From positions 310,001 through 374,000 of the forward strand of contig NZ_BJOR01000002.1 in assembly GCF_006540305.1 (NCBI RefSeq): a DNA stretch of 64,000 nucleotides. The letters are read 5' to 3'. The notes below the pieces were generated by a model. It ran no database searches. It was not told the DNA's origin and was given only the letters and a program-made list of their open reading frames with translations. The DNA comes from Streptomyces sp. 6-11-2 (GTDB taxonomy: Bacteria; Actinomycetota; Actinomycetes; Streptomycetales; Streptomycetaceae). Positions 3,909 through 7,184 of this stretch are shown here, in pieces; within the stretch, counting starts at the first letter, position 1, and each line of letters opens with the position of its first letter. The position numbers were made by a program, and so were the translations under genes.

Positions 3909-6900
3909 ATGACCATCAACGCGCCGACCGCCACCGCGGCGCCCCAGGCGACCGCCGGATGCACCCTCGACATCGGCGGCATGACGTGCGCCTCGTGTGT
4001 GAGCCGGGTGGAGAGGGCGCTTCGCCGTGTCGACGGGGTGGCGGCCGCGGAGGTCAACCTGGCCACCGAGGTCGCCACCGTCCACTTCGACCCGGCACAG
4101 GCGGGGCTGCAGGAGCTGACCGCGGCGATCACCCGGGCCGGCTACACCGCGACCCCGCGCCGCGCCACCCGGCCCGCCGCCGCGAACGCCGCGAACGATG
4201 GGAACGTCGCGAACCCCGCGACGAGCGAAGAACGGGACGGCGAGGCACACCTGACGTCACTCAAGCGCACGTGGCAGATCACCCTTGCCACCGGCCTCGG
4301 GCTGATGGTGCTGATGTACGTGCCGCTCTACCTCGACGCGATGGACTGGCTGATGCCGGCCATCCTCGTGGTCGCCACGGTTGTGCAGTTCTGGGCCGGG
4401 TGGGACATCTACCGTGCCGCCTGGGCAGCCGCGCGGCACCGCAGCACGAACATGAACACCCTCGTGGCGCTGGGCACCGGGGTCGCCTACGCCTACAGCA
4501 CGTTCGTCACCCTCTGGCCCGCGGCCGCCGAGCGGTGGGGCCTGCCGCTGCACGTGTACTTCGAGACCTCGCTGGTCGTCCTCGCCCTCGTCCTGGCCGG
4601 CCGGTGGATGGAGGCGAAGGCGAAGAAGCAGGCCACCGCGGCGATCACCGCCCTGGTCGGGCTGGCGCCGAAGACCGCCCGTGTGCTGCGCGACGGCACC
4701 GCGGTCGACATCCCGGTCGAACAGGTCGTCGTCGGCGACCTGGTGCGGGTCCGGCCCGGCGAGAAGATACCGGTCGACGGCGTCGTCACCGACGGCGCCA
4801 CCGCGGTGGACGAGAGCATGCTGACCGGCGAGAGCCTGCCGGCGGACAAAGCCGTCGGCGACCAGGTCATCGGCGCCACGATCAACCGCACCGGCACGGT
4901 GGTGCTGCGGGTGACCGCGGTCGGCCCGGACACCGCGCTGGCGCAGATCGTCCGGCTCGTCGAAGAGGCGCAGGGCGCGAAGGTGCCGCTGCAGAGCCTC
5001 GCCGACCGGGTCTCGGCCTGGTTCGTGCCGATCGTGCTCGGCCTGGCCGCGGCCACCTTCGTCGCGTGGGCGCTGCTCGGCCCGGACACCGGAGGGCTGA
5101 CGACGGCGATCAGCACCACGATCGCGGTGCTGATCATCGCCTGCCCCTGCGCGCTCGGTCTGGCCACGCCCACGGCGGTGATGGTCGGCACCGGCCGCGC
5201 CGCGGAGCTGGGCATCCTCATCGGCAACGGTGACGCCCTGGAGACCGCACGACGCGTCACCGCCGTGGTGCTCGACAAGACCGGCACGATCACTCGGGGC
5301 AAGCCCTCCCTGACCGGGATCACCACCACCGACGGCTGGACCGAGAACGACGTTCTGGCTCTGGTGGCGGCCGCCGAGACCGGCAGCGAGCACCCGGTCG
5401 GCGAGGCGATCGTCGTCGCCGCCACCGCTCGCTCCCTCGACCTGCCGGCGCTGCGCTCCTTCGATGCCGTTCCTGGGCACGGCGTCGACGCCGTCGTCGG
5501 CGAGAAGCACGTTCTCGTGGGCAACGCCGCGTTGATGGCCGCCCGCGGCGTCGACGTCGCCGCGCTGGAGGTCACCGCCGCCACCGAGGCCGCGGCCGGC
5601 CGCACGCCGATGTTCGTCGCGGTCGACGGAGCCGCGGCCGCCGTGCTCACCGTGGCCGACACGGTCAAGGCGGAGTCGGCCGAGGCGGTCGCCCAGCTGA
5701 AGGCGCTGGGGCTGCAGGTGTGGATGCTCACCGGCGACAACGCCGCCACCGCCGCGGCGATCGCCGAGCAGGTCGGCATCGAGCATGTGCTCGCCGAGGT
5801 GCTGCCGGCCGAGAAGGCGGCGAAGGTGCGCGAACTGCAAGAGCGGGGGGACATCGTCGCCTTCTGCGGGGACGGCATCAATGACGCCGGCGCCCTCAGT
5901 GAAGCCGCGATCGGCCTGGCGGTCGGTACCGGCGCCGACGTGGCGATCGCCGCCTCCGACATCACCCTGGTCGGTGGCGACCTGCGCGGGATCGTCTCGG
6001 CGATCGCGCTGTCACGGCGCACCGTGACGACGATGAAGCAGGGTCTGGGCTGGGCGTTCGCCTACAACCTGCTCCTCGTCCCGGTCGCCGCTGGAGCGCT
6101 GTACTGGTGGAACGGCCTGCTGCTCGACCCGGTTCTGGCCAGTGCGGCGATGGCGATGAGCTCGGTCAGCGTGGTCGGCAACGCGCTGCGGCTGCGCCGC
6201 TTCCGCCGCCCGGCTACGGCTCGGGAGATCCTGCACCCACCGCTGCGCGCCCGGGCCGGCCAGTGCGCGTACCTGACCGGCATCGCGGCCGTCGCCCTGG
6301 CCCTTGGCGCCGGGCTGACCGCGGTCAGCCGGATGGACTTCGCCGAGCGCGGCATGAACGGCCAGCTGGCCTGGGTGCAGGGCACCGGCATGCCGATGCG
6401 CCCCGCGATGAGCGTGATGATGACCGCCGACGTCCCGGCGACCGATGCCGCCGAGGCAGGGCTCGATGTCCACCTCGATCTGCCCGTGAGCGTCCGGCCC
6501 GGCGTGCCGGCCCGGCTGGTGGCCACCATCGTCGACAGCCGGACGGGGAAGCCGGTGGAGGATCTGACCCGCAGCCACGAGGCGTGGATGCACCTGATCG
6601 CCACCCGCGCCGACCTCGGCACGTTCGCCCACGTGCATCCGCTGCCGACCGGTCGGCCCGGACAGCTCGCGGTGGACATCACCTTCCCCACCGCCGGTCA
6701 GTACATCGTCAACACCGAGTTCCGCCGGCAGGGCCAGATGGCCGACGTGCACTCCCGGCAGGTGGTCACCGTCGCCGGCCCCGCGCCCGCGCCGGTGACC
6801 GTCACCGAAGGTCCGCGCAGCACCGTCGTGGACGGCGTCCGTGTGCGGCTCGACGGCGACGCCAAGGTCGGTGGGCGCAGCGACCTGCACTACACATTCA

Positions 6901-7184
6901 GCGACGCGGCCACGGGTCACCCGGTTGACGACCTGCGGCCCTATCTGGCTGCCGCCGGCCACATCGTGGTCATGCGCGCCGATGGGCAGACCTTCGCCCA
7001 CGAGCACGCCGAGGCCACCGGTGCCGACGGACTCCCCGTCTTCGCCCTGCCCGCCCAGACGTTCGGCCCCGAACTCGCCGTGCACGCGGAGTTCCCCACC
7101 GCCGGGACCTATCAGTTGTGGGCACAGTTTCGGCTCGCTCACGGAGACGTGATCACCGTGCCGTTCACCGTCCGGGCCGGCTGA
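3909..7184 (+). CDS. copA: Copper-exporting P1B-type ATPase with C-terminal extracytoplasmic domains
   Basis: 1091 residues; typical CopA proteins have about 750. Residues 1-770 are a normal Cu(I) ATPase: one HMA domain (GMTCASC, Cys27 and Cys30), the TGES loop, the membrane CPC motif at 412-414, phosphorylated Asp456 in [17 protein letters not shown], and GDGIND at 654-659. The conserved loop after it reads AGAL instead of the common APAL. A further hydrophobic segment at about 788-807 should take the chain out of the cytoplasm. It is followed by a Met-rich linker from Met809 and two related beta-sandwich-like repeats. Each repeat has a His pair (HVH at 908-910, HEH at 1031-1033) and ends in a FPTAG(Q/T)Y motif. 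ATG 3909 follows CAGGAG. The extension may collect or pass on exported copper; that is inference. Confidence 0.92.

Follow-up and report, generated by a model that had tools for sequence, protein, structure and literature searches.

In the window, the whole stretch of 64,000 nucleotides that was analysed, a copper ATPase gene (copA) continues in one reading frame into a tail of two duplicated domains that are predicted to lie outside the cytoplasm. We consider it moderately probable that the product exports Cu(I) as a P1B-1 (CopA-type) ATPase to which an extracytoplasmic copper-accepting partner is covalently attached, and we infer that the tail binds copper and takes part in its hand-over. 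The pump would thus probably pass expelled copper straight to its own outside carrier. The copA-tail fusion is real and conserved, and no description of it was found in the literature searched.

Features of the fusion gene, its product and the neighbouring genes in the window
Feature	Position	Strand	Basis or remark
copA-tail fusion gene	3909..7184	+	1091 aa, no internal stop
N-terminal HMA metal-binding domain, residues 19-80, GMTCASC	3963..4148	+	Pfam
P1B ATPase core, residues 106-763, eight predicted membrane helices	4224..6197	+	Pfam, TIGR01511, AlphaFold2
CPC motif, residues 412-414	5142..5150	+	invariant across A1 (44 sequences)
DKTGT phosphorylation motif, residues 456-460	5274..5288	+	invariant across A1 (44 sequences)
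Predicted ninth transmembrane helix, residues 779-808	6243..6332	+	AlphaFold2 and hydropathy
Met-rich linker, residues 809-850	6333..6458	+	A1 conservation
YtkA-like module 1, residues 851-957	6459..6779	+	alignment, profile comparison, model
Candidate metal site of module 1: H895, D902, H908, H910	6591..6638	+	invariant residues
YtkA-like module 2, residues 966-1091	6804..7181	+	alignment, profile comparison, model
Candidate metal site of module 2: H1018, H1031, H1033	6960..7007	+	invariant residues
CopZ-like HMA chaperone, intact	2506..2739	+	cluster in 26 of 30 fusion loci
Hydrophobic protein without Pfam match	2766..3221	+	cluster in 7 of 30 fusion loci
GNAT acetyltransferase	3335..3811	+	cluster in 9 of 30 fusion loci
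AAA_16/LuxR (LAL, STAND-type) regulator, 921 aa, N-terminal part, divergent	3..602	-	extends beyond the window
Candidate operator CCCCGGTGAGACACACCC (CCCCGGTGAGAC-CACCC motif)	2429..2446 and 1245-1262	+	one before each copZ copy

The ATPase part of the protein is, judged from its sequence, a complete CopA-type (CPC) copper ATPase whose transport activity is predicted. The sequence-only reading had described a complete CopA, and the CPC, DKTGT and GDGIND (residues 654-659) motifs do lie where it placed them, all residues but I657 being invariant in the 44 fusion sequences of alignment A1. Together with the HMA domain and its CxxC, the sequence marks of P1B-1 (CopA) ATPases (CPC, DKTGT and GDGxND) are all present. 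The protein scores 569.5 bits against TIGR01511 (copper-translocating P-type ATPase), for which the cut-off is 397, and Pfam recognizes E1-E2_ATPase at residues 252-433 and hydrolase at 451-666. Residues Y719, N720, M748, S751 and S752 are invariant in A1 and correspond to YN in M5 and MxxSS in M6, which we take to be signature motifs of CopA. The ATG at position 3909 is the likely start codon because M1 and T2 are at least 90% conserved in A1; the reading frame is open further 5', up to a TTG at 3699.

CopA usually ends after helix M6 and has its C-terminus in the cytosol. The window protein departs from this layout in having a ninth helix and a tail that is predicted to lie outside. The additional membrane crossing after the ATPase that the sequence-only reading proposed is borne out by the predicted helix, which has its hydropathy maximum at residues 789-807. 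Eight Lys or Arg residues occur in 759-785 versus three in 807-850, and because these counts differ across helix 9 the tail is predicted to be extracytoplasmic. An AlphaFold2 model of the full-length protein, with A1 as the alignment, has long helices that fit the eight core membrane segments and the helix at 779-808. The two beta-sandwich domains of this model mostly have pLDDT values near 90, those of the linker (805-840) are below 50, and, with a pTM of 0.47, the arrangement of tail and pump with respect to each other is not reliable. The linker is Met-rich, as had been noted, with seven Met in residues 808-850 (binomial P 7e-5). M816, M828, M834 and M837 are found in 44 of 44 A1 sequences, and M830 and M838 in 43 of 44. 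In the 12 free tails among a set of 19 fused and free-standing ones, variable and often His-rich sequence takes the place of the linker.

By sequence comparison, the two modules that follow the linker are duplicated Ig-like domains distantly related to YtkA/CtaK. That they are related to one another was claimed earlier, and hhalign identifies them as true duplicates (99.4% probability, E 7e-22), pairing H895 with H1018, H908 with H1031 and H910 with H1033. The FPTAG(Q/T)Y motif reported for each module is present as FPTAGQY (926-932) and FPTAGTY (1062-1068). The HVH and HEH pairs are likewise there, but the sequence-only reading was too narrow in assigning each module only a His pair, since each has an invariant triad and module 1 also has the invariant D902. 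Neither the six triad His residues nor D902 vary among the 44 A1 fusions or among the 19 fused and free tails, which go down to 27% identity. Six of the 14 invariant columns among the 19 tails are His (hypergeometric P 6e-6), and Cys occurs in only one of the 44 fusion tails. The match to YtkA (PF13115) is weak, with 19.0 bits for the full window protein (at 849-935) and 23.9 bits for the tail against a Pfam cut-off of 25.9; at E <= 0.01 the family matches 12 of the 19 tails and 29 of the 44 fusions. Modelled alone, the tail forms two sandwiches with a mean pLDDT of 85 and a pTM of 0.82. Its fold matches are generic Ig-like and macroglobulin-type domains with nothing specific among them, and the fold therefore says little about the function of the tail. 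The CusF family (PF11604) has no match in the window protein at E <= 0.1 or in the 19 tails at E <= 0.01. The tail could nonetheless have a function like that of CusF.

With residues 785-1091 as the query, 576 protein clusters matched at E <= 1e-3 (7,997 candidates scored), and 109 of the best 120 of these clusters are 1040-1130 aa long. Scanning genome contigs yielded 29 named fusion loci, including ones from Geodermatophilus, Blastococcus, Modestobacter, Nocardioides, Phycicoccus and Micromonospora, and the tail and DKTGT share one frame in 28 of the 29, the exception being L042. The fusion is thus conserved in relatives, with full-length copies in many independent assemblies. A stop or frameshift near 6230-6330, which the sequence-only reading had named as refutation of the fusion, is contradicted by these conserved and equally long relatives. 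The tail is conserved nearly as well as the ATPase core, with 84% (tail) and 88% (core) identity in P0011 and 60% and 71% in L065. In L042 (7593-10852) the tail is off the DKTGT frame, and L066 (4880-8106) is called as two overlapping frames of 392 and 684 aa; each could reflect a frameshift or a sequencing error.

Twenty sampled fused ATPases form one clade relative to 33 CPC ATPases located beside free tails (100/99, with bootstrap not settled), in a tree whose sample consists of ATPases beside tails only, so that the clade is not compared with CopA at large. The partner of the tail in L118, which is without CPC, was left out of the tree, and 2 of the 36 loci in which an ATPase neighbours the tail have no called ATPase that is long enough for it. 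A single clade of fused ATPases is consistent with a single fusion event. In an even sample of 396 genomes from the phylum, a relative of the tail was found in 30, and a fusion-like tail only in the window's own genome and in the fragmented genome G443 (54-65% identity). A fusion-like tail is absent from 36 other Streptomyces genomes, in which the best identity is 38%; a few Streptomyces fusions are among the matches listed in the protein search. The fusion gene is carried by a separate contig of 712,749 bases, and it was likely gained horizontally.

Neighbourhoods of up to 10 kb on each side were compared for 30 fusion loci (the 29 and the window), several of them cut by contig ends. Recurrent gene clusters are copZ (26 of 30), MFS (21), AAA_16/LuxR (LAL) regulator (13), BTAD/STAND regulator and GNAT (9 each), FtsX-type permease and hydrophobic protein (7 each) and MMPL (4), counts that record proximity and from which a shared transcript does not follow. 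MFS, ABC or MMPL exporters are close to many fusion genes, and many are also near large STAND regulators. No oxidase or Sco gene was recognized among the recurrent neighbours of the 30 loci. Of the 13 loci with a LAL regulator, 10 have the sequence CCGGYGAGA within 200 bases 5' of copZ, versus 3 of the 17 others (0.017 expected). This sequence may be an operator for the LAL/LuxR regulator. An 18-base form of this motif has one exact copy before each of the two copZ copies of the window, although two matches are obtained in 24 of 100 shuffles as well when three mismatches are allowed.

The second CopZ copy (1335-1544, + strand) is degenerate; it is 64% identical to the intact CopZ of the fusion locus L039, and by its sequence the first Cys of CxxC is replaced. 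At 807-1178 (+ strand) lies the remnant of an MFS exporter that covers only residues 369-487 or so of a protein of about 500 residues and is 60% identical to the MFS protein of L039. A SUKH/SMI1-KNR4-type protein is encoded directly 3' of the fusion gene (7336-8157, + strand). The Micromonospora loci L064-L066 have a CsoR-family gene (Pfam Trns_repr_metal) downstream of the fusion; from their sequences, the neighbours there are presumably rhodanese, TauE-like and persulfide-type proteins, which would be more like sulfur control.

The tail also exists elsewhere as a separate protein, as the sequence-only reading had considered, and 70 such loci were examined. The phylum sample and the comparison within the genus had together shown a free tail in 63 genomes, all of which were used, G037 with two matches; 6 of 80 plasmid records were added. 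The first 46 loci were the author's choice (40 of the 63 genomes and the 6 plasmid records) and missed most of a lipoprotein-type sister family; the other 23 genomes and the second G037 match supplied the remaining 24, one of which has no tail match at E <= 1e-3, and all 70 were recounted by one method. With tblastn, an ATPase was detected no more than 1.5 kb from the free tail in 43 of the 70 loci and not within that distance in 27; 37 of the 43 belong to the first 46 loci and 6 to the added 24. The lipoprotein-type subset is mostly without a nearby ATPase. According to gene calls for the first 46, 36 loci have an ATPase gene and 20 a copZ at no more than 1 kb, and 17 have a CsoR-family gene at no more than 4 kb. 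The order is copZ-tail-copA-YHS-CsoR on a Micrococcus luteus plasmid, copZ-tail-copA-CsoR on one from Rhodococcus opacus, tail-copA in Tsukamurella and tail-copZ-copA-cupredoxin in Gloeocapsa, and on a Streptomyces longwoodensis plasmid the tail is divergent from copZ-copA-CsoR; plasmid gene names are as annotated, and copZ, copA, CsoR and tail are our own labels. Those starts of free tails that were displayed mostly have a membrane anchor or a lipobox, neither of which is present in the annotated Gloeocapsa tail. The Priestia homolog of the tail sits apart, amid sulfur and Fe-S genes. These arrangements and the CsoR-type boxes upstream of many free tails mark the free tail as a candidate for the partner of CopA that handles copper outside the cytoplasm; the window protein would be the gene-fused form.

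CsoR operators of Streptomyces reduce to TACCC-N5-GGGTA, and boxes of this type control copper-efflux operons in that genus (PMC3902906). In a search of the 900 bases before the matched part of the tail, a CsoR-type box with at most one mismatch was found 5' of 53 of the 70 free tails and an exact one in 43, where 0.052 are expected per 900 bp; the added 24 loci account for 13 and 6 of these, respectively. Within the first 46 loci, searched from 500 bases upstream to 30 bases into the called gene, 38 have a box with at most one mismatch, against a background of 0.029 per 530 bases expected from the rest of the same loci, and of the 10 tails that have no ATPase gene closer than 1 kb, 7 have the box as well. 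These predicted boxes are the strongest evidence here tying the tail to copper handling, and the free tail is apparently copper-controlled. Four lone tails (L105, L126, L132 and L141) have neither copZ nor an ATPase detected in the fetched stretch and have an exact CsoR-type box upstream. No ATPase was detected near a further ten (L148-L154, L156, L158 and L159), nine of which, L151 excepted, have a box with at most one mismatch. In the window TACCC-N5-GGGTA was not found (0.53 expected by chance), and the box is lacking in 22 of the 23 fusion loci tested (of 29) over the 5 kb upstream that was searched. The one fusion locus that has it, L067, is the most divergent, with the box 31 bases before the start. 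With no box in the window and one in 23 fusion loci, the fusion genes appear to be no longer controlled by CsoR.

In the mechanism that we favour, CopZ would deliver cytosolic Cu(I) to the HMA domain and to the membrane site, and the ATPase would carry it to the outer face by way of the CPC site. There the exported Cu(I) would be captured by the Met-rich linker, which lies immediately beyond helix 9, and could then pass to the His-triad sites of both YtkA-like domains and be held at the membrane. From there the bound copper might go to a cuproenzyme or an exporter, or be re-oxidized and released. We infer copper binding by these sites as well as the order of transfer and the final acceptor. 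A relay from linker to domains is plausible, given that Met ligands prefer Cu(I) and that His ligands are suited to either Cu(II) or Cu(I). The hand-over gains support from the existence of the tail on its own, often beside copA and under CsoR-like boxes. Against the favoured mechanism stand the YtkA score below the Pfam cut-off, the 27 free tails with no ATPase detected within 1.5 kb, the low numbers of ATPases and of exact boxes (6 each) in the 24 added loci, the setting of the Priestia homolog, the 22 tested fusion loci that lack a CsoR box, the lack of a recognized oxidase or Sco gene among the recurrent neighbours, and the unreliable placement of the tail in the full-length model. A more far-reaching proposal, which is doubtful as a whole, would give the free tail the place of CusF in actinobacteria (and partly in cyanobacteria), as an acceptor for CopA that is under the control of copper. 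The fusion would then be a CopA that never frees its copper, moved from CsoR to STAND-type control within operons of multidrug-type exporters, perhaps against copper-binding antibiotics.

It is possible, though rather unlikely, that the tail instead delivers exported copper specifically to the CuA site of cytochrome oxidase, making the protein an assembly pump like CcoI and not a detoxifier. The YtkA-like sequence of the tail would fit such a role, since both CtaK and the YtkA domain of YcnJ take part in the assembly of CuA (PMC13344008, PMC9145763), and so would the 27 free tails away from any detected ATPase, where a general carrier might be found. The recurrent neighbours of the fusion, however, are CopZ and exporters with no oxidase or Sco gene recognized, and free tails are often under CsoR-type boxes, which serve copper-efflux control in Streptomyces (PMC3902906). 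Residues resembling metal ligands that are predicted to be outside and joined to the pump by a short linker could also constitute an external copper sensor or gate, in which binding alters pump activity with no onward transfer. We regard this as improbable, since relatives of the tail are separate proteins, in part without a nearby pump gene, for which a carrier is the better fit; among the Pfam and TIGR01511 matches of the window protein there is no signalling domain.

The generic fold and the proximity of MFS, ABC or MMPL exporters to many fusion genes would also suit a structural or docking module, whose Ig-like domains hold exporters or the cell wall and whose His residues bind zinc or nothing. 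The concentration of invariance on the His residues of both modules and the copper-type operators at many free tails argue against such a module, which is very unlikely. That relatives of both parts are separate genes elsewhere, as in Micrococcus luteus and Rhodococcus opacus, is what a mis-assembly or a frameshift joining two genes might lead one to expect. Full-length fusions in many independent assemblies leave this a negligible probability, and assembly error was rejected given the one-frame fusion in nearly all named loci and the single clade of fused ATPases.

To our knowledge, little is known about the reception of copper outside the cell membrane after CopA beyond E. coli CopA-CusF. 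A free tail acting as a copper-controlled acceptor for CopA is without description in the searched literature. The existence of chaperones distinct from CusF and not known yet has been suggested (PMC5552934), and, according to PMC12362106, no YtkA domains besides the B. subtilis paralog have been investigated experimentally. The fusion and its split relatives name a candidate family of CopA acceptors for actinobacteria, and the fusion offers one polypeptide in which transfer from pump to acceptor could be measured directly. That YtkA-like domains occur both on an exporter and on YcnJ, a proposed importer, suggests a general role in extracytoplasmic copper handling.

The window protein resembles P1B-1 Cu(I)-ATPases such as E. 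coli CopA in its HMA domain, its CPC, DKTGT and GDGIND motifs and its eight-helix core, and differs from E. coli CopA in having a ninth helix and a tail of 284 residues, predicted to be extracytoplasmic, whose two domains each contain a His triad. CcoG likewise has an Ig-like C-terminal domain, which is periplasmic and described as having no known role (PMC7558416), on a copper-related membrane protein, a likeness by description; unlike the window ATPase, CcoG is a cupric reductase. In B. subtilis, CuA assembly is supported by CtaK and by the YtkA domain of YcnJ (PMC13344008). The tail can be likened to these two as a distantly YtkA-like domain, predicted to be extracytoplasmic, that is membrane-tethered or fused to a copper transporter. 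YcnJ, though, is a CopC-CopD protein and proposed copper importer (PMC13344008, PMC12362106), whereas in the window protein the domain is duplicated and placed on an exporting ATPase. A precedent for the order of events is the CopZ-CopA-CusF chain of gamma-proteobacteria (PMC5552934, PMC3817396), to which the proposed path would be analogous in leading from a cytosolic chaperone through the pump to an extracytoplasmic copper acceptor. Unlike CusF, the acceptor proposed here is covalently attached to the pump, Ig-like and His-based, with two candidate sites.
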